Part shown: piece by piece, positions 3,153-44,113 of the stretch | How the letters are laid out: each line of letters starts with the position of its first letter | How positions within the stretch are numbered: the stretch's first letter is position 1 | Origin: a virus | DNA length: 44,113 bases | Virus record (IMG/VR): IMGVR_UViG_3300025174_000043 | Coordinates: 1 to 44,113 of that record | Strand: one strand, 5' to 3' | The notes under the pieces: generated by a model | What the model saw: only the letters and a program-made list of their open reading frames with translations | The model's database searches: none | Told to the model about the DNA's origin: nothing | Translations under genes and position numbers: made by a program

Positions 3153-3506
3153 TCAACCCTCCGAATTCAGATCGATTGGAAAGCAATGGTAGCGGCTGGC
3201 GTGCCGGTCCCATTTCAACAATTTAACCGCGCCTCCGGTTTTGAAGCTCGCGACCATGGACGCGGCAGCAATGGCCACCGGGTCGCCAATGGCCAGCAAA
3301 TAATCCCCGGGCTTAAAATCACCCATGACATTTTGAATGTGGATTACGGATTGTGCCAGCCGCTCCCGGAAGATATTGCCCGGCCCAAGAATGAAGACCA
3401 ACTTGCCGAAGTCGCGAGCGGGCGAAAGATCGTACTTTGGAACGAAGCGGCGCAACGATTGGCTAAACGTGGCCGGTTGCTGGACGACAAAAACTCTATT
3501 AGTCAT
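3153..3506 (-). CDS. Conserved phage protein of unknown function
   Basis: 117 residues. It has a pattern I have seen in small phage proteins next to helicases: ARDFGKLVFILGPGN, then a long helix, then GDYLLAIGDPVAIAAA and VKLLKWDRHASRY at the end. The stop of the upstream helicase overlaps its ATG (3503-3506, ATGA), so its expression is coupled to the helicase. It has no enzyme motif that I can name. Confidence 0.7.
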   Translation of the reverse strand: MTNRVFVVQQPATFSQSLRRFVPKYDLSPARDFGKLVFILGPGNIFRERLAQSVIHIQNVMGDFKPGDYLLAIGDPVAIAAASMVASFKTGGAVKLLKWDRHASRYHCFPIDLNSEG

Positions 3507-5023
3507 AGGCGAATCCCCGCTAAAAATTCTTTCATGCCGCGCCCGGCGATATCGTCGGCGATGTTGATTCGGTTGTCTGTGGTTTTGATGATGTAGGAAT
3601 CTGGACCGGGCGCAACAAAGTCCAAGACTTTGATATTTCTTCCGCCGATCTGTGTTGCCCGTTCCATTGACTGCACTCGAAAGCGCGCTTTGAAGGTATG
3701 CGAATAATAGATGATCGTGGATGCCACCGACATATCCAGGCCCCGGCCACCGGCTTGGGTGTGTCCGATCAGCGGCTTGATATCCCTGTTTTCACGGAAT
3801 GCGCGGAGGGAATCGGACTTCGCTTGACCGGACACGCGCCCATGATATTCGGCGACTTCGTATCCCTCAATTAGCAATCGCTTGCGAACCATATCCATGT
3901 CGGGTTGAAAAGCGCACCAAATGATAACCTTGCCGGGGGCTAGGTAAACTTCCCGGGCGAGCAAGTCGAGTCGCGGATTCTTTCCGGGGATTCGAATTAA
4001 TTTTTTGTTTTCGTCGAAAACGAATCCACTGAAAACCTGTTGCAGCTTATTGAGCCGCGCGCATTTTTCGCCAACGGAAAGCTCTTGACCCTTGATCGTG
4101 AATAGAAAACTATTCAGCAACTCCCGGTAAATCCGAAGTTGCTCTTCGGTCGCTTTAATCTTCCGCACTTCCCGTTCCAAATCGGGCATATCGTGACAGT
4201 CTTCGCGCAAGACGACGGACGTATATTTCGCCATACGCTCGCGTAAATCGTCCAGGTTCTTAAACCCAATCAGCGCCGGGTACATTCGGCCACCGACGCC
4301 GTATTGCTCTTCGTAAACCGCATAATGTGCTTTGAAGTCTTCGTATCGTGCAAACCCAAGCGCCTCTTTTTCCAGAATTTCGAATTGGCTGAAAGCCGCC
4401 AAGGGCGAGCCGGTCACAATTGTTCCGGAAAGAAGTTCGCGATAGGCGCAGCGACGGGCGAGCGCACGGGCCATCTTGGTTCGTTTCGTGCCGGGCGTAC
4501 CGAAGTCATCCGATTCGTCCACGACTAGAAAAACTTTTTTCCGGTGCCGAAGGAAAAAAGCCACGGCCTTACGCACGTCGTCCCGGGTCATGGATTCGGA
4601 GTTGACGGCCAGGACCATTAATTCGTCGGTGTGCCGCGCCTTTTTTAGTCGTTCATACCAAGCGTCCCGATCCGCGCGCCATTGCCGGCGAGCCGCAAGC
4701 GTCAATTTCTTTTCGGCTTTCTTGCTGTTGCTGGCCGAACGCCAGATTAATGGAACGTAGCGGACAGATCGCCATGCGTGTTTCGGTATTTCGACTTCCA
4801 CCCAATTCGCGTGAACACCATTTGGGGCAAAGATCAAGATGCCGTCCACCTTGCCCCGAAGATGCAAATGGCTGGCCTTGTCAATGATCGCCTTGCTTTT
4901 GCCGGTTCGCATGTGCCATGCGAGCGCGCGAGCGGGCGCGTCGCAATTGTTTTCGAATTCGACAAACTGATGGTCGAAACACGGCTTGCGAAAATCGGCA
5001 GCTAAGACGGCGGCGAGACTCAT
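3503..5023 (-). CDS. SNF2-like superfamily 2 DNA helicase/ATPase
   Basis: 506 residues from the ATG at 5023, fixed by an ATGA overlap with the upstream gene stop (5020-5023). Motif I is HMRTGKSKAIID (about residue 40), motif II is VVDESDDFG (about 170), motif III is LSGTIVTGSP (about 205), and the second RecA domain has an arginine-finger region RVQSMERATQIGG (about 460). This is the phage SNF2/DEAD-like helicase often found with family A polymerase, DUF2800, DUF2815 and VRR-NUC. It should translocate on double-stranded DNA in replication or recombination. The Q-X-X-R-X-X-R motif is slightly altered (ERATQIGG), as in other phage members. Confidence 0.88.
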   Translation of the reverse strand: MSLAAVLAADFRKPCFDHQFVEFENNCDAPARALAWHMRTGKSKAIIDKASHLHLRGKVDGILIFAPNGVHANWVEVEIPKHAWRSVRYVPLIWRSASNSKKAEKKLTLAARRQWRADRDAWYERLKKARHTDELMVLAVNSESMTRDDVRKAVAFFLRHRKKVFLVVDESDDFGTPGTKRTKMARALARRCAYRELLSGTIVTGSPLAAFSQFEILEKEALGFARYEDFKAHYAVYEEQYGVGGRMYPALIGFKNLDDLRERMAKYTSVVLREDCHDMPDLEREVRKIKATEEQLRIYRELLNSFLFTIKGQELSVGEKCARLNKLQQVFSGFVFDENKKLIRIPGKNPRLDLLAREVYLAPGKVIIWCAFQPDMDMVRKRLLIEGYEVAEYHGRVSGQAKSDSLRAFRENRDIKPLIGHTQAGGRGLDMSVASTIIYYSHTFKARFRVQSMERATQIGGRNIKVLDFVAPGPDSYIIKTTDNRINIADDIAGRGMKEFLAGIRL

Positions 5024-5766
5024 GCTTGCAGCCTTTGCCATGCGAAGCCGTTGGCCATTTCCGCCGTCGTCCATTGGTTCGCGGCCAATGTTGCGGCCCA
5101 CTCTCTGCGGTCCTTGCCATAGCTTGGGGATTCGATTTTTGAAATAGGCCCGCTGGCCATGCGGGACGCGGCGCAAACGCCCGTCACAAAGACCGGGTAG
5201 CCCATGCACAAGGCTTCCACGGCGGCATTCGAATGGTGCGTGACCAAAGCCCACGCATCGCGCAAAGCGTCACGCAACGGTACATCGCGTTCGCATCCGA
5301 CCCGATGGCGGACTTTAATAGGCCGATCTGTATGCTGGCGTAGCTCTTCCATGATGTGGGCACACCATAGTTTTTCGTCAAATCCCTGCCGGGCGGAATA
5401 GACCGGATCGGGCGGACAAAGCAGGATATGCCGGCCGCCGGTTTTCCACGGCTCAATTCGAATGCCCATCTTGAGCAAGCGCGGATAGTCCGCCCATCCG
5501 TATCCGGAATGCTGAAAAGCGTTTTTCGTTATCCTGAAATATTTTCGGCGGTGAAAATAGGCGTGGTCACAATAGTACCATGCGCGGCCTTCGGAGCGCG
5601 CTTGTTTCATAAGCTGCCAAAGCGCCGGGTTACCAAAGAGCATGATTGGCCCGGGCCGCAAGACGCCATCCGTGATAAGCGCGCCCCCGCACCCCTTCGC
5701 GAATGCCGGACAAATCCGCCGTGCGCTGGTAGTTGTCGCTTGATAGATGTTTGGAATTTCCGACAT
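5020..5766 (-). CDS. Capsule-synthesis-type glycosyltransferase-like protein
   Basis: 248 residues from the ATG at 5766, with AGGAAA at good spacing and three bases after the polymerase stop. The C-terminal half has DAWALVTHHSNAAVEALCMG followed by YPVFVTG and CAASRMA. This order (SN-A-EAL-G-PV-V) is typical of GT-B capsule polysaccharide/KDO-transferase proteins, where it binds the nucleotide sugar. The N-terminal half has GNPALWQLMKQA and YYCDHAYFHRRKYFRI. Its place between the DNA polymerase and a helicase, in one operon, suggests a job tied to DNA (for example glycosylation of modified bases) as well as the more usual surface glycan. Substrate unknown. Confidence 0.6.
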   Translation of the reverse strand: MSEIPNIYQATTTSARRICPAFAKGCGGALITDGVLRPGPIMLFGNPALWQLMKQARSEGRAWYYCDHAYFHRRKYFRITKNAFQHSGYGWADYPRLLKMGIRIEPWKTGGRHILLCPPDPVYSARQGFDEKLWCAHIMEELRQHTDRPIKVRHRVGCERDVPLRDALRDAWALVTHHSNAAVEALCMGYPVFVTGVCAASRMASGPISKIESPSYGKDRREWAATLAANQWTTAEMANGFAWQRLQA

Positions 5767-5768
5767 AG

Positions 5769-8027
5769 CTATTTCCTGTAGCGTTTGTAACGTTTCGGTT
5801 CCGCGTCGATTGGACACCCGGCGAAAGCTGGCGGCAGTTCAATCATCATTTTGCGGAAATCGGTTTCAGCCCCGCAACCTTCGTCCACTTCGGAAATGAT
5901 TTCGTCGTGAACCGATAGCAAAAGATCATAATCAAAATGATCGTCAATAGTGATCTTGGCCAATGCCATGATATCGCGCGCCGTCGCTTGCGTGATATTT
6001 TCCGTCAGCTTTCCGCCGTATGTACCCTGCCGCACCCACCGTTTCGTCTTTTGATCGCGCCCCATAAACCGCAGGCCGGGCCGGCTTTCGCCCCACGAAG
6101 TCTTTTGGAATTTAATTTCAGGGTCGCAATAGTTGAGGCAACGCCCGGACGGCAGTCGGCATTTCAGGAAGCGGCCCTTGACGAACCAAGTCACCTTGCC
6201 GCATTTGACCGGGCGATTGGTACGAACGGCCTTGATCGCGGCAGCCTCTTGATCCTTCCACATTTGCGGGACTTCGGGATACCGCGACCGATACGCGCCA
6301 ACGGTGTAGAGGCATAGCGCGAGTTCGTGCATGATCTTGTCGGGATTCTCGCGTTCGTCCAGCAAGCGACGGCGTTGCACTTTGGCTTCGCGGGACGCCG
6401 CGTTGAATTTGTTTGCGTCCTTATAGTGGGCACGGTTCGGATCAAGTTTGCGCCGAACTTTCTTTTCGAATTCCGCAAAACGCCGCGCGCCCATCATCTT
6501 GATAACTTCGGCGCGAGTCAGATATATTTTATAATCCCGCAAGGTCAAAAGGAATTTAATGTAACCCATGCCATAACCAAGGCCCAAGACCGCGACCTTG
6601 CCGAAGTCGCGTTCGGTTGCGCCGGTCGTGGTGATTACCTTGGCCGTTTTCTTAGTGATCTTCCGGCCGAAGATACCGGATGCCATATCGCAATAAATGT
6701 CGCCGTCGCCGACGTTGAAGACCTGCAACGCCTTTTCCGCGCCGGCCAGCCATAGGACGTTGCGAGCTTCAATGGATGAATAGTCGGCGGTCATCAGATC
6801 GCGGCCCTTGGGCGCGATGATCGCGCCGCGTAGGCAAGACACAATCAGATTCATAACATCGCCGTAAATCAGTTCGCACCATGCCAGATCGCGCGTCTTT
6901 ACGTCGGCGCAAGCGGTGTCCATGGAAATGCCTTTCGGTAATTTTCCTTTCGGCAAGTTATGGATTTGAATTCCGCGTCCAGCAAAGCGGCCGGTTCGTT
7001 CCGCACCGCAGTAAACCAATAGCTCGCGAGCGCGGCCCTCTTCGTCCACGCATTGCAGCATCCGCTTATATTTGTTCGGCGATGTTCGGTTGACTTCCCG
7101 CATGATTTCGATAACGCGCCGGGCACGCTTCGAAAGCGGTTCGGTGTATCGTTCCAAGTACCATTCAATGGTCTTGGCCTTCGTATCGGGCAGGAAAAGA
7201 TTTTCGTTTTCCTCTAGCCATTCCTTGCAAAGCGCGCGTTGCGAACCTTTTGGAATGCCGGTTATTTGTTCAAGCTCGCCGTTGAGTTTGGCGCGAGCTT
7301 GCTTCACAAGGTCCAGGGCGGCGTGACAAAGATCGATATCGATCAGCACGCCGCGCCGATTCATCGCTTGCGTGATCTGCCAAACGCGATATTCGGTCGG
7401 GGATAGGTCCGGAATGGTGTCCGACAACCGGACTTCGGAGCGCGTGTCCGTCTTATTATATTCCCAATAATCGTGAAGGCCCTCAACGTCTTCGTGAAAC
7501 ACAATGGCGTCTGCGCCGTAAAGTTCTTTCTCAAATTTGCTTAGGCGCTTTGGCTTGGAAAACTTGCGGATCAAAGCCTTGCCGCGCGCATCTTTTTGGA
7601 TCGGTAAATTGAGCGCCGCGCCGGCTTCGCCCAAGCCACGCGGCAGCGAATGCGCGGCGGCCTTAGCGGCGGAATCCATCCATTGATCGGCGGCGACCTT
7701 CGGCCATTTCAATTTTCGGACGGCCACGTTTTCCCAAATACACTCTTCGAAAAAACAATTATGCGCTTCCACCTTGCCGCCGGCTTTGATCCATTGGAAG
7801 AGGGGATAGAGCGCGTGGATCGGCGACGCCGTGATACCGATATCCGGATGGCCACAATGCCAAGCCATGACCCGGCGGGCGTCCATGCCGGGCAGGTGAT
7901 AGGACAAGCAAAGAATTTCGGTACTTGGGTCTAGCGAATATAAATATGCGCCGATCTTTTCCAGATCGGCCTTAGAGCGCGTTTCAAAATCGATAGTCGC
8001 GCGGGGAATGCGCGTCGGTACTGTCAT
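5769..8027 (-). CDS. polA-like: Family A DNA polymerase with 3'-5' exonuclease domain
   Basis: 752 residues from the ATG at 8027 (MTVPTRIPRATIDFETRS). Exonuclease motifs are present: ExoI TIDFETRS (residue ~12), ExoII AHNCFFEECIW (~90) and ExoIII YNKTDTRSE (~195), so proofreading is likely. Polymerase motif A is TADYSSIEARN (~410), motif B is around DFGKVAVLGLGYGMG (~470) with an insert before it, and motif C is SVHDEI (~700). Motif A has SSIEAR where E. coli Pol I has SQIELR, common in phage enzymes. No 5'-3' exonuclease domain is present. This is the phage replicative polymerase. Confidence 0.93.
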   Translation of the reverse strand: MTVPTRIPRATIDFETRSKADLEKIGAYLYSLDPSTEILCLSYHLPGMDARRVMAWHCGHPDIGITASPIHALYPLFQWIKAGGKVEAHNCFFEECIWENVAVRKLKWPKVAADQWMDSAAKAAAHSLPRGLGEAGAALNLPIQKDARGKALIRKFSKPKRLSKFEKELYGADAIVFHEDVEGLHDYWEYNKTDTRSEVRLSDTIPDLSPTEYRVWQITQAMNRRGVLIDIDLCHAALDLVKQARAKLNGELEQITGIPKGSQRALCKEWLEENENLFLPDTKAKTIEWYLERYTEPLSKRARRVIEIMREVNRTSPNKYKRMLQCVDEEGRARELLVYCGAERTGRFAGRGIQIHNLPKGKLPKGISMDTACADVKTRDLAWCELIYGDVMNLIVSCLRGAIIAPKGRDLMTADYSSIEARNVLWLAGAEKALQVFNVGDGDIYCDMASGIFGRKITKKTAKVITTTGATERDFGKVAVLGLGYGMGYIKFLLTLRDYKIYLTRAEVIKMMGARRFAEFEKKVRRKLDPNRAHYKDANKFNAASREAKVQRRRLLDERENPDKIMHELALCLYTVGAYRSRYPEVPQMWKDQEAAAIKAVRTNRPVKCGKVTWFVKGRFLKCRLPSGRCLNYCDPEIKFQKTSWGESRPGLRFMGRDQKTKRWVRQGTYGGKLTENITQATARDIMALAKITIDDHFDYDLLLSVHDEIISEVDEGCGAETDFRKMMIELPPAFAGCPIDAEPKRYKRYRK

Positions 8028-8035
8028 CAGGTAAA

Positions 8036-8260
8036 CTAGGCCGGCGTGGCGTCTTGCTCCGGCTTGGCCTTTTGTTCGCATTTGACTTGGAAAGCAACGC
8101 CGCCGGGAAACTGCGGATCAAGATTGGCCTTGATCGCCGGCAACACTTGTTCAAGGCGAGCGTAACAAGCTGCCTCATCGGGGAAGCCTTGTTCGGATTC
8201 CAAAAGGACAATTGGCATTCCGGTGGCCATGGAAAGTACAAGAACGATGGCAAACCACAT
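8036..8260 (-). CDS. Small exported or membrane-anchored protein
   Basis: 74 residues. It starts MWFAIVLVLSMATGMPIVLL, a hydrophobic helix that looks like a signal peptide or anchor, then an acidic helix EAACYARLEQVLPAI and a charged tail ending KPEQDATPA. The ribosome site is strong (CTAGGAGG). It has two Cys. It lies between the ssDNA-binding protein and the polymerase, right after a structured gap. Function unknown. Confidence 0.65.
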   Translation of the reverse strand: MWFAIVLVLSMATGMPIVLLESEQGFPDEAACYARLEQVLPAIKANLDPQFPGGVAFQVKCEQKAKPEQDATPA

Positions 8261-8371: not shown

Positions 8372-9022
8372 TCAGTCGAAATCGTCGCCCGCGTTGTCGG
8401 CGTCGCCGGACTCTTCGTCCATCCATGCGGCGTCAACCTCTTCGTCAAAGTCGTCTTCGGCGTTGGTGCGGTTGTCGAGACGCGGACCGTCCTTGATTTT
8501 CTGGACGTTGGCCAAAAGGAACGCCACGCCCTTACCCTTGTTCTTGAAAGGATAGATCAGGACGGTGGCGCGGCAGTAGCAGCCGGGATAGATTTCGTCG
8601 GCGTTGCCTTCCGCTTCCGAAATCGTGGACTTGCTCTTATCCACGACACCGGGCCGCATCTTGGACGACAAGGACGCAAAGAAGACGCCCGCGCCGTAGC
8701 CTTCGGTTCCTTCGCGCTCTTCGCCGTCGCGCAAGCCGGTCTTGACGTTGGCCGGGGCCTTGATGGCGATCTTGCCATTTTCGACCACAAAAAACTTCTT
8801 GCTGAATTCGTGGGACGAAGCGCGATTCAGTTCGTTGAGCATCTTTTTCCAGGCCACCTTGTCCGAATCCGAAAATTTCTTCGGATCGAAAATCGCCTGA
8901 CAACTGAATTTCGGTTTGGAATTCGGGTCGTCCGCGATCTTTTGCGCTTCGAAAAGATGCGGGTAGGAAATCCGGAAAACAGGAGTCGTCAGTTTTTCGG
9001 ACTTGAATGTGGAACGTGCCAT
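8372..9022 (-). CDS. DUF2815 family phage single-stranded DNA-binding protein
   Basis: 216 residues from the ATG at 9022 (MARSTFKSEKLTTPVFRISYPHLFE). The pattern TPVFRISYPHLF, then KFSCQAIFDP, YAGAGVFF-like strands and EIYPGCYCRATVLIYPF matches the DUF2815/T7 gp2.5-like OB-fold SSB group that accompanies DUF2800 and phage polymerases. The C-terminal 28 residues are strongly acidic (EDDFDEEVDAAW ... DDFD), like the acidic tails of SSBs that recruit polymerase and helicase. It is expected to coat single strands during replication and annealing. Confidence 0.87.
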   Translation of the reverse strand: MARSTFKSEKLTTPVFRISYPHLFEAQKIADDPNSKPKFSCQAIFDPKKFSDSDKVAWKKMLNELNRASSHEFSKKFFVVENGKIAIKAPANVKTGLRDGEEREGTEGYGAGVFFASLSSKMRPGVVDKSKSTISEAEGNADEIYPGCYCRATVLIYPFKNKGKGVAFLLANVQKIKDGPRLDNRTNAEDDFDEEVDAAWMDEESGDADNAGDDFD

Positions 9023-9108
9023 GTGCGTTACTCCGATCTGGCGTTGAAACGTTCGTGCGTTATATGAAGGTAGCGGGGCAATGATGCCGATTTTCGGCAC
9101 CCTTGCAA

Positions 9109-9345
9109 TTAGCATTTGGACCGGACTTCGTTCCAAATATAGCGGGCATTGATGGCGACGAATGTAGCTTGCAGCGTGAATACGCCCCATGGCATTTTCG
9201 TTTGGAGCGCACACCACCAAATGAGCGCAGCCGCGCCGAAGAGCGACCAAAGCGCGCCTTGCAATCGGCGGTTACCGAAGATCGCGTAACCGATTACGAT
9301 GCCGACGAAGCCGGCCCATTGGATCACGTCTGCAAGCTCTATCAT
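9109..9345 (-). CDS. Small membrane protein with two to three helices
   Basis: 78 residues from the ATG at 9345, which overlaps the stop of the upstream methyltransferase by ATGA (9342-9345). Hydrophobic segments are at about residues 6-25 (VIQWAGFVGIVIGYAIFG) and 30-50 (GALWSLFGAAALIWWCAL), with a third weak one near residue 60. It resembles small inner-membrane proteins of the CBU_0592 type. A holin role cannot be excluded, but no lysis genes adjoin it. The 86 bases downstream, up to the SSB start, hold no gene. Confidence 0.65.
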   Translation of the reverse strand: MIELADVIQWAGFVGIVIGYAIFGNRRLQGALWSLFGAAALIWWCALQTKMPWGVFTLQATFVAINARYIWNEVRSKC

Positions 9346-10775: not shown

Positions 10776-11047
10776 CCGAAGTTCACTCCGGTTAGGCCGT
10801 ACCGTTTGCGGACTTGTTCAAGCGACAAAGCTTTACCGCGTGTTTTCATATGGCGCAGAATGTCGCCGGCAAGCATATCTTCCAAACGCATCCGGGTTTG
10901 TCGCATGATCTTTTCCGGTCCAAGTGCAGCTTTCGAATCACCGGGCGAGAGTTCAACCTTGGCGGATACGAAAAAATCCACCGACTGATAGTCGCCAAGA
11001 TTGACCTTGACCGTTTGCGATACCACGACTTCCTTTATCTCAGACAT
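10772..11047 (-). CDS. Hypothetical phage protein
   Basis: 91 residues from the ATG at 11047 (MSEIKEVVVSQTVKVNLGDY), which overlaps the end of the glycosyltransferase gene by eight bases. Beta-rich first half (VKVNLGDYQSVDFFVSAKVEL), helical second half. The layout (strand, GDYQSVD, strand, helix) is like small phage nucleic-acid-binding or regulatory proteins, but no family is claimed. Confidence 0.6.
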   Translation of the reverse strand: MSEIKEVVVSQTVKVNLGDYQSVDFFVSAKVELSPGDSKAALGPEKIMRQTRMRLEDMLAGDILRHMKTRGKALSLEQVRKRYGLTGVNFG

Positions 11048-11828
11048 GGCCAATCCCCAATTCGGTTTTGAACCTTTGTCCAAAAACCATTGTCGGTTTG
11101 ATCTGCGCCCAAGCATCGCGGCAGTGAGGGCAGGGCGTCCACTTTCCGCAAGCCGGCGGCACCACGATATTGTTATGCGTCGGATAGCCGGTTACGTTCG
11201 GATCGGTCGCCCCACCGAAAAGAACGGTGGCATTCACGCCAAGCGCGGCAGCCGCGTGGTGCAACCCACCTTCCGGCAGGAAGCAATAGAAAGCAAATTT
11301 CAAGATCGCGGATGCGTGCCGGAACGTCGGGGTTTCAAGCCGGTAAACGTCGGCAAGCCATGCCGTGCCCCGTGGTCCAAGCTGCACCGGCCGATAACCG
11401 GCGGCGCGGATCACGTTCGCAAGCTCTTGCCAATTGGCGCGGCCCCATTGCTTGTTCGGATTTGATTGGGACGGAATATTCGGTTCCACGATCATGAAAG
11501 GCGGCAACCCCTTCACGGCCATGGTTGCGTATTTCATTTCGGCGTCGGTGTGAACGATAGTGCCAATATGATCGCGAGCGCGCCAGCCGGTCCACCGCTG
11601 CCCAAGCGCGCGGGTGAATGGATATCTGATGTACGGGCGAGCCTGCGGACCATTGGTGATCTTGGCAAAGTCGCCTTGTTCGCCGGCTTTGGCAATCCAG
11701 ATCAACCCGGCCCACAGATCGGACCACCGGGGCCGTCCGTCACGGCCGCAAATTTGCACCTTGCGGCCGTGCTTTTCGTATTCAACGCGGGCGTGCCCGC
11801 TGGCCATGATTTCATCGCCGAACGACAT
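11040..11828 (-). CDS. GT9-like glycosyltransferase (ADP-heptosyltransferase fold)
   Basis: 262 residues. The C-terminal half holds the GT9 core: FLPEGGLHHAAAALGV (sugar-nucleotide loop), VLFGGATDPNVTGY, then CGKWTPCPHC, the Cys-rich end often seen in phage-borne members. The N-terminal half is short (SFGDEIMASGHARVEYEKHG, GD-I), as expected for a compact GT-B protein of roughly 260 rather than 350 residues. It sits five bases downstream of the FkbM methyltransferase, suggesting they modify the same molecule, such as host surface glycan or hypermodified phage DNA. The acceptor cannot be read from sequence. Confidence 0.75.
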   Translation of the reverse strand: MSFGDEIMASGHARVEYEKHGRKVQICGRDGRPRWSDLWAGLIWIAKAGEQGDFAKITNGPQARPYIRYPFTRALGQRWTGWRARDHIGTIVHTDAEMKYATMAVKGLPPFMIVEPNIPSQSNPNKQWGRANWQELANVIRAAGYRPVQLGPRGTAWLADVYRLETPTFRHASAILKFAFYCFLPEGGLHHAAAALGVNATVLFGGATDPNVTGYPTHNNIVVPPACGKWTPCPHCRDAWAQIKPTMVFGQRFKTELGIGHV

Positions 11829-11832
11829 GCCG

Positions 11833-12510
11833 TCACCACGTCATGATATAATCGCCTTGGATGGCCGCACGCTGGCGCATACCAAGGGTTTTTAGGAATT
11901 CCACGGCGGCCGTCGTGCTGATGCGATAGCGGACCGGGCCGCCGGTTTCCGGTTTTTGTTCAACGATGATGACCGGCCGGCAGCGTTTCAAGGTTTCGAC
12001 TGCGCCTTGTAGCACGAAGAGTTCGTACCCTTCGCAATCGATTTTCATGAAATTGGCTTCCTTGATACCGAACGAATCGAGTGTGAGCATTGGAACCTTG
12101 ATGCCGCTGCCATCCCATTCGATTCCGGTGTCGCCGCTTGAACCGACCGTGCGAGTCCGAATATGCGCTTCCCCGCATTCCGGTCCAAGAGCGACCGGGC
12201 TAAGCGCGACTTGGCCGGTGGCGATTTCCGCCTGCATGTTCTTGGCGAAACAATCTTGATGTTCCGGCATCGGTTCGAATGCCAGTACGCGCGTGAAGTC
12301 CTTGGCCATTTGCCACGACCACAGTCCGACATGCGCGCCGATATCGATTGCCGTAAATTTCTTTTCACCGACGAAGGAAAGCGCCGTGCGATACTTGCGG
12401 CCTTGATAAAGCAACCGCCCGTCGCGCTTATCGTTCACCCGAATCATCCAATCCGGCAAATGCTTTTCACCGTTTGGCATGAACCATCCGATTCGCTTGT
12501 CGAAATTCAT
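11833..12510 (-). CDS. FkbM family methyltransferase
   Basis: 225 residues. SAM-binding motif I FTAIDIGAHVGLWSW (~residue 53), acidic end of strand 2 AFEPMPEH (~78), and the FkbM signature LDSFGIKEANFMKIDCEGYE (~145-165), followed by LQGAVETLKRCRP. FkbM enzymes methylate hydroxyls, mostly on sugars and polyketides. With the GT9 gene directly downstream it suggests production of an O-methylated sugar, perhaps on the host surface to block superinfection or on phage DNA. A ribosome site GGAAAC precedes the ATG at 12510. Confidence 0.85.
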   Translation of the reverse strand: MNFDKRIGWFMPNGEKHLPDWMIRVNDKRDGRLLYQGRKYRTALSFVGEKKFTAIDIGAHVGLWSWQMAKDFTRVLAFEPMPEHQDCFAKNMQAEIATGQVALSPVALGPECGEAHIRTRTVGSSGDTGIEWDGSGIKVPMLTLDSFGIKEANFMKIDCEGYELFVLQGAVETLKRCRPVIIVEQKPETGGPVRYRISTTAAVEFLKTLGMRQRAAIQGDYIMTW

Positions 12511-12523
12511 GGCACGTTTCCTT

Positions 12524-13897
12524 TTATCCGAAGTTGAATTCGTCGTCTTCGATATCGTCGGCGAAATCGTCGCCGGCCGTCGCTTCCACCGCTGGACGCG
12601 GATCGTCCACCGGCGCGATGGTCAAGCCGGCATCGGGCTTGACCAAAAATTCCTTAGCAAATTTTTTCCGCTTCGCCTTCGTCGGAATAAGTTTTTCAAT
12701 CTGCGGGCCGCTGCGCAGCTTGCGCGGCGAGTAGAGCAACGTCGCATCTTTGATATAGCCGCCTTTCACAAGCGCGTCGGCAATCTCTTTTTCTGTTAGC
12801 TCCGGGTTGAGCTTGCGAATGGATCGGCGAGCGACAAGCTTTTGGCCCTTCACTTCATAGCCGGCTTCCATGGCGCGTTGCGCATAAATGTTCGCGGCCT
12901 TAATCAGCGCCTCTAGCATCGGTGCCCATGACAGGATGCGCGCGACATGGACAAGATCGGAATTCGCGGCTTGCCGGCCTTCGGCCTTGACAGGCAAATG
13001 GATTTCCAATTCTTGCGGTTCATCGGCGAAGTCGATTTTGGCTTGCTCTTCCGCTGCAAGGCGGCGAGCCGGACAGATCGCTTGCGCTTCGCAAAAGGTG
13101 CAATGCTCGCCAGCCGAAAGCCACTTCGCCGCCCACTTGTCACGGCCTTTGGTGCCGGCTTTCTCGAATGCCGCTTCCGCTTCCTCGCATCGCTCGATTG
13201 CCGCGCGATATTCTTTTTGAAAATCCAGCAAGTCGCGCTTTGTCAATTCGACGTAGCGGATTGCGCCCTCTTCGTGATCGGCACGCGGTTGACATATCAA
13301 GGCGCGGTAAATCTTGAACGCAAATTTCTTTTCAATCGCCTTGCCAAGCAAATAGGCCAACGTCTGCGGATTGTCCTTATGCTCAACGGTTAGATATCCG
13401 TTCTTGTAGTCGTCCACTTCCAAGACGCCGGCTTTCAGCGCGGCCAGGGTTACGTCCGCCGTGCCCGATGTGTCGTCCCGATCCGGTAGCGGATTGGTAC
13501 GGGTTTCCAACTCCAAATCTTTTTCATCAAGGCCAAGCTCTTCCAAACGTTCCCGGACGTAATCCGTCATGATCGTGGCATTGTGGATCATCGATTCGTC
13601 CACAATAAAAAACGTGCGACCGGGACCGGGAGTTTTGGCGTTCGGCTTAAGAATCGTCGTTCCCTCTTCGCCGTCCGGCTTTTCCAAAAGCTCAACGATT
13701 CGGTCTTCGTAAAATGCCGGCTCCGATCCTTCGCTTAAACAACGTTCAATGATTGCGTGGGTCGCCGTACCAAGCTGCGCCGCTTCGCCTGCGCTGGCGC
13801 GTTGCTCTTCCGGCAAGGTACTGCAAAACGCAAGCGTGCCCGGACAACCGATGAATTGCTTAGCCCTAGATGGCGAACGCTTGGTATGGAAAGCCAT
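12524..13897 (-). CDS. DUF2800 Cas4-like PD-(D/E)XK exonuclease
   Basis: 457 residues. The N-terminal region SPSRAKQFIGCPGTLAF and GTATHAIIE (~residues 8-50) is the RecB/Cas4-type helix set. The active-site Asp and E-X-K are in SGTADVTL and VLEVDDYKNG (~145-170). A Cys cluster CTFCEAQAICPA (~270), together with the early Cys, may bind an Fe-S cluster as in AddB/Cas4 nucleases. It is the partner of DUF2815 SSB in phage replication modules and probably resects ends for recombination. The C-terminus is acidic (GDDFADDIEDDEF), similar to the SSB tail, which could mean both bind the same partner. Confidence 0.87.
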   Translation of the reverse strand: MAFHTKRSPSRAKQFIGCPGTLAFCSTLPEEQRASAGEAAQLGTATHAIIERCLSEGSEPAFYEDRIVELLEKPDGEEGTTILKPNAKTPGPGRTFFIVDESMIHNATIMTDYVRERLEELGLDEKDLELETRTNPLPDRDDTSGTADVTLAALKAGVLEVDDYKNGYLTVEHKDNPQTLAYLLGKAIEKKFAFKIYRALICQPRADHEEGAIRYVELTKRDLLDFQKEYRAAIERCEEAEAAFEKAGTKGRDKWAAKWLSAGEHCTFCEAQAICPARRLAAEEQAKIDFADEPQELEIHLPVKAEGRQAANSDLVHVARILSWAPMLEALIKAANIYAQRAMEAGYEVKGQKLVARRSIRKLNPELTEKEIADALVKGGYIKDATLLYSPRKLRSGPQIEKLIPTKAKRKKFAKEFLVKPDAGLTIAPVDDPRPAVEATAGDDFADDIEDDEFNFG

Positions 13898-22501: not shown

Positions 22502-23434
22502 CTATAGATTTTCCACAATATCAAACCACCAATCTGAAACCTTTTGAAGTTGTTCGCGCTCGCGCTTTTCACGGGTCTTGGCCTTATCCCATTTGCGGCG
22601 GTCAATCAACGGGTCCAAGGCGTCGCGGATCAATTGTTCGATCACTTCCGGCGACAAGGCGTCCAGTTCCCACGATTGATCGCCGAACTCGGCAACATAT
22701 TCGGGCGCGCGGGTGTCACCCATCTTCGCCGGGTTCGGCGGTGGATTGTATCGCTCGATTTGATCGTAATTGAGCGCGAGCCGGCGAAGCTCAACTTTCA
22801 TTCCCGTGAGCAACGCAAACTTGGCACGGTTTTCCCGCGACATATCCAGGCCGCTTGGGTCGTGATCGCCAAGGTGGAAGACGATGGGTATTTGTCCATC
22901 GTTGTTAGCTTGCAAAAATCGTTTTGAAGCTTCATATTGTGCCGATTGGGATACGTAGCCCCGGCAGGCAAAGAAGCGCACGCGATAAGCGTTACAGACG
23001 TTTTCGATCACACCGGCCAAAGCATCTTTTTCAATCCAAACTTCCGGCCGGTATTTCTGGCCTTCCCACCTATCAGTCCGGTATTGATTGGCTACGGCTT
23101 CAATGATATCGGCCGGCGAATTCCAGTGGTTCAATCCATCCAACGAACGCAACCGATCTTCCATCATGCTCCAATCGATCAGGCCAGCAAGCCGCGCCTC
23201 CGATACGATGTTGCCGAGTCGCTTATAGCTTTGCATGGTGTTCGCGTAATGATCTTCCTGCGCCGCTCCCGGCAACGATACCACGATCTTGCGCGAGACA
23301 AATTGATAATGAAGCTGGCGCAGCGTCATCGTGAATCCCTTGGTGTGCATTTCCCCAAGGATTTCGTTTGCCGCGTCAATGACGATCTTGGACGATCTGG
23401 AAAACCGTTTTTCAATGAAGGCTTCACAGGCCAT
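22502..23434 (-). CDS. Topo VI-A-like TOPRIM protein (possible Topo mini-A)
   Basis: 310 residues with an AAGGAA site. The first 110 residues are winged-helix-like, with FTMTLRQLHYQFVSRKIV, where Topo VI A/Spo11 proteins carry the catalytic Tyr (here Tyr 43 in LHYQF). A TOPRIM domain follows: EVWIEKDALAGVIENV (Glu, ~residue 130) and IVFHLGDHDPSGLDMS (DxDxSG, ~185). This domain order matches Topo VI-A relatives, including the short phage and plasmid members lacking a B subunit. No B-subunit-like gene is in the window. It could cut or nick DNA, or be a relic used in replication or repair. Confidence 0.75.
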   Translation of the reverse strand: MACEAFIEKRFSRSSKIVIDAANEILGEMHTKGFTMTLRQLHYQFVSRKIVVSLPGAAQEDHYANTMQSYKRLGNIVSEARLAGLIDWSMMEDRLRSLDGLNHWNSPADIIEAVANQYRTDRWEGQKYRPEVWIEKDALAGVIENVCNAYRVRFFACRGYVSQSAQYEASKRFLQANNDGQIPIVFHLGDHDPSGLDMSRENRAKFALLTGMKVELRRLALNYDQIERYNPPPNPAKMGDTRAPEYVAEFGDQSWELDALSPEVIEQLIRDALDPLIDRRKWDKAKTREKREREQLQKVSDWWFDIVENL

Positions 23435-24062: not shown

Positions 24063-26528
24063 CTATCGCTCCCACTCTTCTTTCTTCGCCCCTAGGCTAC
24101 CCCAATTAATTTTGCCATGCAAACGATTTTCAAAGCTTACGCGGCAATCGCGAAGCGGAGGCAGGGTTAAGACGCGGGCGCGGCCTTCAGATTTGGCGAT
24201 CACGTCGGCGCGGTCGTCCGGGATTGTCCGGATAAGTTCGGTTTGCGCGCCGGGGAAGAGTTCGGAAAACTCTTTAACTATAAAGAACGCCGATCCACGT
24301 TCCGGCCGCTGATAGCGGTAATCCATGTTCTTGCAATACATATCGAAAGCAGTTCGGTAATCCTGCCGGAAAAACCACACTTCCTCTTTCTCCCAATCGC
24401 CGGAAAATGGGAAAGGCAAGGCCCCTTCCAAGAGCGCGTCGAAAAAGAAGTGTTGCAGCGGCGACATGGATTGCAACTTTTGTTCGGTCAACGCATCGGT
24501 GTTCGGCATATTGCGCGCCGGGTGCCACCCCTCCGGCAACTTCCATTTAAGCAGATCGTGCAGCAAGCGGGCGTACCCGGAATCGCCGGCCATGCGCAAT
24601 TGATCGTACAGCTTGTTCCACTTGTCCACCTGCCGTTGCCATTTGGTGTTCGCTTCCAAGACAAAATAGCGCCGCGCGTCCATGGACGCCGGAATCACCC
24701 ACTCGGCATTCGAGGCCATCAGGATATGAATATAGTTTGGGGCGGTGACGGCATCGCGCCCCTTGCCTTCGATTGTCAACATGCGTTCGGTGATTAGAGC
24801 TTTCATCTTCGACTCGGCCACTTTGTCATAAGGCTTCACGGCTTCGTCGGCGAAAAGAAAAATCAGGTCTTGCATATGCGAGTTGAAGCGGCCCACTAAA
24901 AGGTCCGGCGAGTGAATCGCCATGCCGTGTTGCCCGGCAATGCGAACTAAAGAGTTACCCCACGTTCCCTTGCCGACGCCTTCCGTCCCCTTGAACACCA
25001 CCGCCGTTTCGGCCGGGCGATCTGGATAGCGGAACATGAACGCAGCCCAATTCATTACGTAGTCATAATAGGCTTGCTTGCCGCCGCATAGGACTTCGAA
25101 AATCATTTCTTGCAGATAGGACCAATCGCCGGTCCGATCCGGTTCCATGGCCCATCCGCGATAGAGATTCAGACAACCTTCGTGTTCGTTGCCGGTCGGA
25201 TCGAAGATGACTTGATCGAATGTGCGGCGTCCGTTCCAATCGATCCACGCCTTGCCGAGCGGAGTTTGCTTGCCGGTGTGATCCGACATGACGCGGCGTG
25301 TTGCGTACATGCGTTCGAAATCGCTGGACTGAATGCGCAGCCATGTGTCGCGCTTTAGAGCCTTGTCATGGATGCACTTTAGAATACGGAATTTAGAGCC
25401 GTCCATGCCGGCCGAATATTCCACGTTCAACTCTTGCAGCCATGTTAGCTGTTGCTCTTTGTCGGGACCATCTTCGGGCGGATCAAAATCAAATTCGGTT
25501 TGATCGTCGGATTCGAATTCGTCGGCGGCCTTGCTCTTTGTCTTCTTGGCTTTTTTCTTTTTCACGTCGGCTTCGAAATCGTCGCTGCCCAATTCCACCC
25601 CGTCGTCAAAATCGGACATGGCGTCTTCGGCGCTGGCAACGATCAGATTGGATTGCCCGGCTTCCGCCAATGCGGCGTTGAGAGTCTTATATGTATAGCC
25701 GTCGCCGCGTTCGGCGTGCAAGCTATCCCATCGGCGTCCGATTATTTCCGCGTCGCTCGCGTACTTCGGATCGGAAATCGACCATTCGATAAATTCGGAT
25801 CGGCCGTCGCCTCCCGTTGCATGATGCGCAGCCATCATCAAGGCCAGCCATGAGTCGTGATCCTGATAGTCTTCCGGGTCCAGCGCGTCCAGGGCGATGG
25901 CCAATTGCTCTTGGCTGTATTGTCCGCCACCGACTGAAAGCGCGCGTTGCGGACGTTGAATTAATTTTAGAAGCTCTTCCGGCCAAGGTGGCGCTTCGTC
26001 AAGCGGCGGATTCGTCGGGTCGAATGAATAAAGTTTGCCCGTATCCGGATGCACCGACCCGGCCGCCACGACCTGCCGGCCCTTGCTCTTGAATTCGACT
26101 CCTGGATAACCCTTGAGCGTATCGACCACCAAGAGCTTCGCCGGTTTTGTCCCGTAGTAGTGCGAGCCGCCGGAGCCGGTGATTACGCGCGGATATTTTT
26201 TCAGATCAAGTCCAAGCTCAAGGACTAGATCGGCGAGTCCCTTGTCCCCACCGTTTCGCGGATCAACGTCCATGACCATATCGGTGGGACGCAGCCGAAC
26301 GCCCATGTTGCGTTGATCGGAAATGCAGCGATCAACCACTTGGCCCGGTCGCTGATTATATTGCTTGGTGGTCCAGTTCTTATCTAGGGGGCGCTTGCCG
26401 ACGCGGACCTGCTTAGTCGCACCCGTCTTCTTATCGCGAATCTCACGTACTGCGTCCGGCCTGTAGAGGGGTATAGTAGGATAGTTGGAATAGAGACGGA
26501 ATTGCTTTGGATCGATTCGGTTACGCAT
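24063..26528 (-). CDS. Primase-polymerase/helicase (PrimPol plus SF3-like ATPase)
   Basis: 821 residues from the ATG at 26528, with CAGGGG at good spacing; an in-frame ATG at 26639 lacks a ribosome site. The N-terminal half has a PrimPol active-site pattern MVMDVDPRNGG (~residue 80) and GSGGSHYY (~115), then GVEFKSKGRQVVAAGS. An acidic-basic linker (~residues 300-360) joins the DUF5906/VapE-type ATPase: Walker A FKGTEGVGKGTW (~500), Walker B LIFLFADEAV (~545) and a following ILMASN motif. It should lay primers and unwind DNA. It is the first leftward gene from the control region. Confidence 0.9.
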   Translation of the reverse strand: MRNRIDPKQFRLYSNYPTIPLYRPDAVREIRDKKTGATKQVRVGKRPLDKNWTTKQYNQRPGQVVDRCISDQRNMGVRLRPTDMVMDVDPRNGGDKGLADLVLELGLDLKKYPRVITGSGGSHYYGTKPAKLLVVDTLKGYPGVEFKSKGRQVVAAGSVHPDTGKLYSFDPTNPPLDEAPPWPEELLKLIQRPQRALSVGGGQYSQEQLAIALDALDPEDYQDHDSWLALMMAAHHATGGDGRSEFIEWSISDPKYASDAEIIGRRWDSLHAERGDGYTYKTLNAALAEAGQSNLIVASAEDAMSDFDDGVELGSDDFEADVKKKKAKKTKSKAADEFESDDQTEFDFDPPEDGPDKEQQLTWLQELNVEYSAGMDGSKFRILKCIHDKALKRDTWLRIQSSDFERMYATRRVMSDHTGKQTPLGKAWIDWNGRRTFDQVIFDPTGNEHEGCLNLYRGWAMEPDRTGDWSYLQEMIFEVLCGGKQAYYDYVMNWAAFMFRYPDRPAETAVVFKGTEGVGKGTWGNSLVRIAGQHGMAIHSPDLLVGRFNSHMQDLIFLFADEAVKPYDKVAESKMKALITERMLTIEGKGRDAVTAPNYIHILMASNAEWVIPASMDARRYFVLEANTKWQRQVDKWNKLYDQLRMAGDSGYARLLHDLLKWKLPEGWHPARNMPNTDALTEQKLQSMSPLQHFFFDALLEGALPFPFSGDWEKEEVWFFRQDYRTAFDMYCKNMDYRYQRPERGSAFFIVKEFSELFPGAQTELIRTIPDDRADVIAKSEGRARVLTLPPLRDCRVSFENRLHGKINWGSLGAKKEEWER

Positions 26529-26609
26529 TCTGCACCCCTGCAAGTCCGACTTTTCGTCGGCATGGGCACGCTCTTTAGACCCAAAACGTCCCAAGGTCAA
26601 CGGAACGAT

Positions 26610-26888
26610 GTGGGTCACCAAGAAAGCCTTGCGCCGCAATATCTAAATAGATTTTTCACCCCGATTCACCGTCCCATATTTATTTCTGAGTCATCGCGCG
26701 CTAGAAACTAGGGTTGTATAGTAATGTACGTTATTATCGTATATACCTGGATTCCATAGGGGGAGTTGGCGAGGGTGTCGAGTGTGGGTCACCAAGGACA
26801 GGTAGGGGGTAGTTGTTCAATGAACATCAATATATTTTTGATTTTGCGAGCGACGAAAAGCGTGGGTCATCCTTGGGCCGCGACCCAC
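26610..26888. repeat. Repeated GTGGGTC words (iteron-like)
   Basis: GTGGGTCACCAAG occurs exactly at 26,610-26,622 and 26,784-26,796. A near copy, GTGGGTCATCC, is at 26,862-26,872, and the reverse complement GACCCAC is at 26,882-26,888. A 13-bp exact repeat 174 bp apart in a non-coding area next to the primase gene fits DNA-binding sites of a replication initiator, or could be a remnant of duplication. Confidence 0.6.
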
Positions 26889-27087: not shown

Positions 27088-27273
27088 ATGGCGGACGAAT
27101 TCGAGGCCAAACGCGGGCGACCGGCGAGCGGGCAAAACCCGTCCGTGACCATGCGGTTTTTGCGCGCGACGATGGCGCGGATTGATGCCTACGCGGCCGA
27201 ACGTTTCATCAGCCGCGTTGAGGCGATTCGGGAATTGGTGGAAAAAGGACTCGGCAATGGCGACGGGGAATAA
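27088..27273 (+). CDS. Ribbon-helix-helix DNA-binding protein
   Basis: 61 residues. After KRGRPASGQNP comes the RHH core SVTMRFLRATMARIDAYAAE followed by RFISRVEAIRELVEKGL: one strand and two helices as in CopG/Arc/MetJ proteins. It has no obvious ribosome site and its ATG follows a palindrome directly, suggesting it represses its own start or is expressed from a short leader. It overlaps the small terminase start by 17 bases. Confidence 0.75.
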   Translation: MADEFEAKRGRPASGQNPSVTMRFLRATMARIDAYAAERFISRVEAIRELVEKGLGNGDGE

Positions 27274-42321: not shown

Positions 42322-44113
42322 ATGGCCAGCAACAAAACCATAACGCAACGTATTGCCTTCGAAGGCGGCGCGGAAATGAAAGTGCAGCTTTCCAATATTG
42401 GGGAAGCTGGCGCAGTTGCATTCAAAAGGTTGAAAGATGCGGGCGACGCGGCGTCGGGTTTTGGCGCGCGGCTTATTCCTGTTTTGGATTCTATCAAACA
42501 AAAATTGAAAGACGTTGGCGACGCCGCCGGTCATGCGAAGGAAAAAATTTCTAATATGGCGGAATCGGTTCGGAACGTAGCGAATCGAATTGCTCTTATC
42601 GCGACGGCCGCGATTGCCGGGGCAACAGGGTTTGCAATGCTGGTATTAGGTGCCGGTAATGCCGCCGACGAAGTTGGCAAGGCAGCCGATGCGGCCGGCA
42701 TGGGCACAACCAAATTTCAAAATTTGCGCGATGCTCTATCGATTCTTGGGGCTGAAAGCGGCGGGGTGGGACGGCTTATTGACAAAATGAACCGGACCCT
42801 TGGCGAGTCTCAAAAACAAGCTTTGGAGACGGCTAACAAGCAAAGGAATTTGACCGAACAATTCAATCAAGGGAAGATGACCGGCGAAGAGTATCTAAAA
42901 AAGCAGCAAGAGATTAACCGGGAAGCGCGCGAGCAAGTGAACGTTTTCAACCGCCTTGGCGTATCTGCCGCCACGGCGATGGACGATCCGCACGAAGCTC
43001 TTTTGCAATTTGCCGATGCGTTGAAAGTTTTGCCGGAAGGGATTGAAAAATCTTCCTTGCGTGCGGAGATTTTTGGAAAAACGAATAGGCAATTGGCCCA
43101 AGCGTTGAACGAAGGTCGCGATGGGTTGCTTAAATACGAAGCGGAAATGCAACGGATTGCGCCGGCCTTTACAACGCTGGAAATTGCCGTTGGGCAAAAA
43201 CTGCACGACGCCTTTGAAAAGCTTACGTTGGCGGCGACTCGTGCCAAGGATCATTTCTTACTTCTATTCGGGCCGGGTCTGACTCAGATCATTGATGCGT
43301 TCACGGAAATGATTGTTGATAATCGGGACAAGCTGATGGCGTTCGGGCAAGAAATGCTCAACACCATGCAGCCGATTCTAAAAGATTTTGTGGCGTTGCT
43401 GCAAAATAAAGAAATTGATCCGGCGGGTTTTATTGCGAAGATTCGGGACGCCGTGGTTAAACTCGGCACCGATGTTAAAGCAGCTTTGGGCATCGTGGTT
43501 GCCGCGTGGAACGGCTTCGTTGCTATTCTGGATACGGTAGCGCGCGGCATCAATGCAATCTTTGGTACGAATATTTCCGGGCAAGCTCTTGCGATTGTCG
43601 CGGTGATCGGTGTCTTAAGTGGCGCATTCGCGGCCGTGGCCGCGACGATTTCGGCGGTGATTGCAATCGTCGGTGTCTTGGACGCGGTTTTGGTGGCTGC
43701 GTTTGGGACCGGCGGCGCGCTGATGATCGGCTTGGCGGCGCTTGGGTTCGCCATTGGGTTTATCTTAGGCCAAGTCTTGCCGGAGGCGGCGCAGAAAGCC
43801 GTCGCCGTAATGTCGGAAGCTATTTCCGGCACCGTCCAGAATTTTCAGGAAGTCTTCGCGTTCCTTGGCCGGGCGGCGCAAGCGGCATGGGACGGCATTG
43901 TTTTGGCGGCCGAAACCGCGTGGAACGCAATCACTGAGTCGGTTACTAGCTTGGCCGGCGGACTAGCGGCAATTTTCGGTGCAGTTTGGGGCGCGATTAC
44001 GGAAGGTTTCCGATCCGCCGTGGATGCGGTCAAAGGATTTTTCGAAGACCTTGGCAACACGGCACGCGGAATTTTTGAGGGAATTAGCGGGTTTATCCAA
44101 TCGATTATTTCCG
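42322..44113 (+). CDS. Tape measure protein, N-terminal part (cut by the right edge)
   Basis: 597 codons in the window, no stop; ATG at 42322, four bases after DUF6441. It begins MASNKTITQRIAFEGGAEMK with helices such as VQLSNIGEAGAVAFKRL. A hydrophobic stretch lies at ~residues 88-112 (RIALIATAAIAGATGFAMLV), and a longer one at ~420-480 (ALAIVAVIGVLSGAFAAVAA and following). DKMNRTLGESQ and QEINREAREQVNVFNR form a coiled-coil-like part. WDGIVLAAETAWNAITESV and WGAITEGFRSAVDAVKGFF repeats are typical of tape measures. It sets tail length and helps DNA enter the host. Confidence 0.92.
   Translation, partial: MASNKTITQRIAFEGGAEMKVQLSNIGEAGAVAFKRLKDAGDAASGFGARLIPVLDSIKQKLKDVGDAAGHAKEKISNMAESVRNVANRIALIATAAIAGATGFAMLVLGAGNAADEVGKAADAAGMGTTKFQNLRDALSILGAESGGVGRLIDKMNRTLGESQKQALETANKQRNLTEQFNQGKMTGEEYLKKQQEINREAREQVNVFNRLGVSAATAMDDPHEALLQFADALKVLPEGIEKSSLRAEIFGKTNRQLAQALNEGRDGLLKYEAEMQRIAPAFTTLEIAVGQKLHDAFEKLTLAATRAKDHFLLLFGPGLTQIIDAFTEMIVDNRDKLMAFGQEMLNTMQPILKDFVALLQNKEIDPAGFIAKIRDAVVKLGTDVKAALGIVVAAWNGFVAILDTVARGINAIFGTNISGQALAIVAVIGVLSGAFAAVAATISAVIAIVGVLDAVLVAAFGTGGALMIGLAALGFAIGFILGQVLPEAAQKAVAVMSEAISGTVQNFQEVFAFLGRAAQAAWDGIVLAAETAWNAITESVTSLAGGLAAIFGAVWGAITEGFRSAVDAVKGFFEDLGNTARGIFEGISGFIQSIIS

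Follow-up and report, generated by a model that had tools for sequence, protein, structure and literature searches.

A Topo VI-A-like Mini-A protein encoded in the early gene set of a phage genome fragment

The window analysed here, a stretch of 44,113 bases that makes up an entire IMG/VR record, encodes a 310-residue protein that almost certainly belongs to the Mini-A family. With moderate confidence we read this protein as a Spo11-like enzyme that cleaves DNA independently of a B subunit in the phage recombination/replication module, and it probably acts by tyrosine chemistry of the Topo VI-A/Spo11 type. Spo11 makes the chromosome cuts with which meiosis begins. Mini-A is of interest as an uncharacterised family that has no ATPase subunit in the examined records and has kept every catalytic residue; with its clear active site, such a small phage protein offers an easy test case for the Topo VI-A core as a self-sufficient, controlled cutter. 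What is new is one more sequence in an already named, uncharacterised family; as a sequence it is ordinary.

Gene content of the window

The record is a fragment, as its 3' end at 44113 falls within a tape-measure-like ORF and a terminal repeat is absent. No tyrosine integrase was found in the 44,113-base record. Terminase, portal and major head genes lie on its plus strand, which indicates that Mini-A is carried by a mobile element, and the early gene set lies on the minus strand. The plus strand across 22502-23434 is interrupted by stops, the Mini-A ORF is on the minus strand, and a ribosome-binding-like AAGGA stands upstream of its ATG. The early genes are as follows.

24063..26639, minus strand: PrimPol/helicase, head of the early operon (Prim-Pol 2.4e-15, PriCT_2 6e-16, DUF5906 1.5e-18)
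22502..23434, minus strand: Mini-A gene, 310 aa, ATG start at 23434, stop included (PHROG 6247, tblastn, AlphaFold model)
12524..13897, minus strand: DUF2800/PD-(D/E)XK exonuclease (PF10926 2.9e-43; phrog_69 5.6e-72)
8372..9250, minus strand: Gp2.5-like ssDNA-binding/annealing protein (phrog_112 1.9e-41)
5769..8081, minus strand: family A DNA polymerase, PolA (phrog_17 6.8e-86; PF00476 1.8e-13)
3503..5254, minus strand: SNF2-type helicase (phrog_62 2.5e-81; Helicase_C 5.3e-11)

The original prediction had placed the gene in a replication operon with a PrimPol/helicase and a family A polymerase, and both were recovered (24063-26639 and 5769-8081). Inside the same operon, between the exonuclease and the annealing protein (11040-12510), are a glycosyltransferase family 9-like gene and an FkbM methyltransferase-like gene, a pair that may serve DNA or surface modification. 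The plus-strand late genes begin with a small ribbon-helix-helix repressor-like gene (27088-27273), which points away from the early operon.

Relatives of the window protein

The PHROG 6247 profile, annotated 'DNA topoisomerase', matches residues 4-306 of the protein at an E-value of 1.2e-102. Pseudomonas phage NP1 is the example of Mini-A given in one review (PMC7614492), and by tblastn the window protein is 40.7% identical to NP1 Mini-A over residues 4-301 of 310 (about 96%; E 6e-66); the two share one alignment and one tree. The assignment to the Topo mini-A family is upheld by sequence, profile and structure. That the family is known and little characterised also proved accurate, as it is already named, is described as close to Topo VIII (PMC8185306), and has no characterised member in two 2021 reviews (PMC8185306, PMC8084294); we found no Mini-A biochemistry in these reviews.

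Relatives were found by tblastn in 76 phage records (including NP1) and 57 plasmid records, with carriers that include Rhizobium, Pseudanabaena, Listeria and Salmonella Chi-like phages. With the alignment as query, viral contigs and contigs of bacterial and archaeal genomes yielded further relatives, bringing the members in the scanned collections to hundreds; the single window sequence retrieved no related loci, and single-sequence searches of Pfam, NCBIfam and PDB sequences gave no match for it. The tree places the window protein among relatives from viral contigs and alphaproteobacterial genomes, a position of modest support, and its nearest relatives by path are from Rhizobiales.

The window protein resembles NP1-type Mini-A in its full-length homology, size, motifs, lack of a B subunit and place as an early phage gene. 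It differs from other Mini-A proteins in an additional loop of about 12 residues that follows the winged-helix core (near residues 49-63) and for which only three of 150 homologues (L072, L083, L090) have a counterpart, and in having His at position 42 in place of the usual Tyr (His in 2 of 150).

Several relatives are unusual in their own right. In Roseobacter phage RDJL Phi 1 (L012:3001-3884) the Mini-A frame is broken, so that the match is split in two and just the C-terminal part lies in the annotated gene, whereas the related RDJL Phi 2 gives a single unbroken match. Actinobacterial plasmids (L017:1947-2873, L018:1962-2867 and others) carry a divergent group of about 22-31% identity, with T-T-Q-A-E-A replacing S-W-E-L-D-A, which may connect Mini-A with DUF2399/JetD-like proteins. 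A Mini-A gene on a contig binned as Methanimicrococcus (L176:6001-6891) groups with Bacillota relatives, and the genome in that bin has no match to Topo VI-A, although all 60 further genomes sampled from its class have one; binning error, incompleteness or transfer could each account for this. Long open frames antisense to Mini-A recur at 21 loci (for example L044:7740-8684, minus strand), probably as an effect of codon usage. About 3 kb from one Mini-A gene, a match to phrog_1211, '2-aminooxy adenylosuccinate synthetase' (L023:11279-12280; 1.1e-64), hints at a modified-adenine genome.

Candidate active-site residues

The three motifs quoted in the original prediction are all present: LHYQF (Y43), WIEKDAL (E135) and LGDHDPSG (D190, D192), and their conservation goes well beyond chance. 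The residues that we consider part of a putative active site are the following.

23318..23320, minus strand: Arg39, counterpart of Top6A R102 (hhalign; 77/77)
23306..23308, minus strand: Tyr43, candidate catalytic tyrosine, counterpart of Top6A Y106 (hhalign; winged-helix alignment with 1d3y; 77/77)
23030..23032, minus strand: Glu135, TOPRIM acid, counterpart of Top6A E202 (hhalign; invariant)
22865..22867, minus strand: Asp190, TOPRIM DxD, counterpart of Top6A D254 (hhalign; invariant, homologues partly selected on the motif)
22859..22861, minus strand: Asp192, TOPRIM DxD, counterpart of Top6A D256 (hhalign; invariant, homologues partly selected on the motif)
22667..22669, minus strand: Glu256, possible counterpart of Top6A clasp residue E342 (invariant in 150/150; motif likeness)

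When the tyrosine and the TOPRIM acids were checked for conservation, R39, Y43, E135, D190 and D192 were each found in 150 of 150 homologues, as were K136 and E256; the relatives were retrieved with the motifs GD[HY]DPS and TxRQxxYYQ, so that part of this invariance is built in, namely that of the DxD motif and possibly that of R-x-x-x-Y in the viral set. For the 77 homologues on contigs of bacterial and archaeal genomes, selection was on GDHDPSG alone, and within that set R39, Y43, E135 and E256 are present in all 77. All of R39, Y43, E135, D190 and D192 are also kept in 19 members chosen by BLAST, down to 24% identity.

In an unconstrained hhalign comparison with 20 archaeal Topo VI-A sequences, R39, Y43, E135, D190 and D192 were all placed on catalytic positions, corresponding to R102, Y106, E202, D254 and D256 of Methanosarcina mazei Top6A (numbering from PMC13040014); the profile-profile score itself is weak (probability 2%, E 0.02). 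In Top6A, E342 forms an electrostatic clasp with R102. The likeness of E256 to E342 is confined to a local motif (E-x-D-A-L vs E-Q-Q-A-F), and the pairing was not recovered by hhalign. In PDB searches, Topo VI-A 1d3y came second with family profile A1 (E 1.4, with the DxD motifs aligned) and was absent with profile A2, and sequence profiles alone are therefore no proof of the link to Topo VI-A.

Predicted structure

The AlphaFold model of the 310-residue protein is of high confidence (pLDDT 93.7, pTM 0.87) and has two domains.

23150..23401, minus strand: N-terminal winged-helix (5Y-CAP-like) domain, residues 12-95 (folded alone; best PDB match 1d3y)
22607..23074, minus strand: TOPRIM domain, residues 121-276 (VIA-align to Topo VI-A 1d3y)

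Against the PDB, Foldseek gave a sole match below 1e-3, to M. mazei Topo VI-A (9o7o_A, E 8.6e-4, probability 1.00); against viral models there was one match below 1e-3, to a 152-residue protein. With VIA-align the TOPRIM half is closest to Topo VI-A 1d3y (Z 11.5, rmsd 2.9, 142 residues), followed by MksG and JetD (both 10.8), Spo11 (9.1) and primases (6.7-8.0). On the TOPRIM fold, as modelled, Topo VI-A and JetD are tied (11.5 vs 10.8). The winged helix was folded in isolation (pLDDT 84), and its best PDB match was again Topo VI-A 1d3y (Z 8.0, rmsd 2.2, 69 residues), with the next at Z 6.3; Foldseek also put Topo VI-A on top for this isolated domain, with a best E-value of 2.4 and none that was significant. 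The Z 8.0 alignment starts by pairing model residue 12 with 1d3y chain residue 72, an offset of 60; if it has no gaps, Y43 would fall on residue 103, the catalytic tyrosine of Methanocaldococcus jannaschii Topo VI-A. Topo VI-A therefore ranked first for both the TOPRIM domain (Z 11.5) and the winged helix (Z 8.0) in the structural comparison with Topo VI-A and Spo11, and sequence, profile and structure all agree with the predicted order of domains, a winged helix with its tyrosine followed by TOPRIM as in Topo VI-A.

Two other TOPRIM readings were rejected. A primase was set aside on its Z scores for the TOPRIM half (6.7-8.0 vs 11.5 for Topo VI-A). An OLD nuclease was set aside on the make-up of the protein, whose 310 residues consist of winged helix and TOPRIM, and on Pfam, which found no ATPase domain; OLD chains were absent from the structure list, an absence that by itself excludes nothing.

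The original prediction had also counted a tyrosine facing away from the TOPRIM site as grounds against the assignment. This argument is misplaced, because the tyrosine of Topo VI and of Spo11 cooperates with the partner subunit's TOPRIM site, from which it lies about 10 A off at rest (PMC13040014, PMC11922746); a tyrosine turned from its own TOPRIM would not count against the assignment.

B subunit and gene order in other carriers

The claim that the gene has no accompanying B subunit stood for this fragment record, in which HATPase_c and HATPase_c_3 had no match. Likewise, no GHKL ATPase was detected in the records of 45 relatives, 14 of them whole phage records, in a search that matched all control genomes. 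The GHKL B subunit or domain of the Topoisomerase VI/VIII holoenzyme was accordingly found neither in the fragment record nor in those of the 45 relatives.

Recombination genes accompany Mini-A in several carriers. An Ensifer prophage (L104) has, in order, a RecE-like exonuclease, a RecT-like annealing protein, a small HTH/excisionase-like gene and Mini-A, with a sliding clamp slightly further on. In Paenibacillus prophages Mini-A is followed by a phrog_69 exonuclease, a Gp2.5-like protein and PolA, and in Listeria phage LWP01 by a phrog_69 exonuclease, a Gp2.5-like protein and a gene annotated as DNA polymerase. The window keeps this order of Mini-A, exonuclease, Gp2.5-like protein and DNA polymerase, as in the Listeria and Paenibacillus prophages, with other genes interposed and a distance of about 8.6 kb between exonuclease and Mini-A. 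In NP1 a Sak4-like protein and then a Cas4 exonuclease lie directly downstream of Mini-A. Such company is not universal, as Mini-A adjoins terminase in Phobos and ThyX in SPN19. The DUF2800 exonuclease occurs in 527 phage records, vs 76 for Mini-A, and so the exonuclease module does not need Mini-A. Taken together, the recombination exonucleases and annealing proteins nearby favour a role in recombination over topological relief.

Discussion

If Mini-A works as its fold suggests, two copies would join via their TOPRIM domains around a DNA channel and so create two hybrid active sites, in each of which Y43 of one subunit would attack the backbone while the TOPRIM acids of the other hold Mg2+. 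The products would be staggered breaks with protein bonded to the 5' ends, and cutting might be gated by DNA bending and dimerization instead of ATP. There is a recent precedent in mouse SPO11, whose dimers need no partner to cut DNA (PMC11922746). Breaks of this kind could then be opened by the phage exonuclease and paired by the annealing protein, leading to recombination-dependent replication. That the making of breaks for recombination is the main role of Mini-A is a tentative view, which we hold a little short of even confidence. The wider proposal is more doubtful still: Mini-A may be a phage counterpart of Spo11 whose partner-free, programmed double-strand breaks pass to exonuclease and annealing protein and so drive replication by recombination, a Spo11-style initiation outside eukaryotes under control of an R-E clasp as in topoisomerase VI.

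The alternative that survives best, although we judge it unlikely, is a true minimal type IIB topoisomerase that cuts, passes or swivels, and reseals DNA without ATP, relieving supercoiling or unlinking phage DNA as it replicates, possibly helped by a host factor. Mini-A has the same cleavage core as Topo VI-A and sits within a replication operon; the Microscilla marina Topo VIII needs no ATP to relax DNA (PMC7614492), and SPO11 is able to reseal nicks (PMC11922746). Strand passage by Topo VI, however, needs the GHKL B subunit, the gene for which was found neither here nor in the records of the 45 relatives.

We think it improbable that Mini-A is a hydrolytic endonuclease of the JetD/MksG type, or another TOPRIM endonuclease, that nicks or cuts DNA such as that of the host or of competing elements and in which Y43 is structural. 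The tied TOPRIM scores (10.8 for JetD and MksG), a weak DUF2399 similarity in 5 of 19 family members (best 1.6e-4) and a JetD_C match in one of 150 (0.03) would fit such an enzyme. Against these stand the winged helix, which in isolation ranks Topo VI-A first, TP6A_N matches in 8 of 150 members (best 0.0013), and the tyrosine itself: the equivalent winged helix of MksG lacks a candidate tyrosine (PMC10123090), whereas Y43 and R39 are present in 77 of 77 Mini-A proteins of the genome-contig set, which was selected without regard to that motif.

A replication initiator or nicking protein, more Rep-like than topoisomerase-like, that primes replication through a cut at the phage origin is less probable again. 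It would suit an early operon with PrimPol and PolA and the presence of Mini-A on small plasmids of 8.8 and 15 kb, but enzymes with the Topo VI-A fold cleave the two strands of a bent duplex, and the analysis identified neither an origin nor a specific site. Loss of catalysis, leaving a DNA-binding or regulatory protein as the annotation 'DNA binding protein' in some phage records might suggest, is very improbable given that all catalytic positions are invariant across 150 divergent sequences.

Comparison with known systems

Among known enzymes, the Wadjet nuclease JetD/MksG has an equally similar TOPRIM domain (Z 10.8). It is MksG, the JetD relative, that lacks the winged-helix tyrosine (PMC10123090), which sets it apart from Mini-A, where Y43 is invariant; JetD works with SMC proteins, and none was noted among the window genes scanned. 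Topo VIII is a type IIB relative that is likewise found on mobile elements, and it has A and B parts, whereas the window protein has the A part only. With Topo VI-A the window protein shares the winged helix plus TOPRIM, the five catalytic positions and the best structural match of both halves; it differs in being about 60 residues shorter, with 10-20% identity on the structure alignment, no B subunit and a weak profile score. Spo11 is meiotic, whereas Mini-A is a phage protein without known accessory break proteins; the two have the same fold (Z 9.1), and Spo11 gives a precedent for partner-free cutting (PMC11922746).
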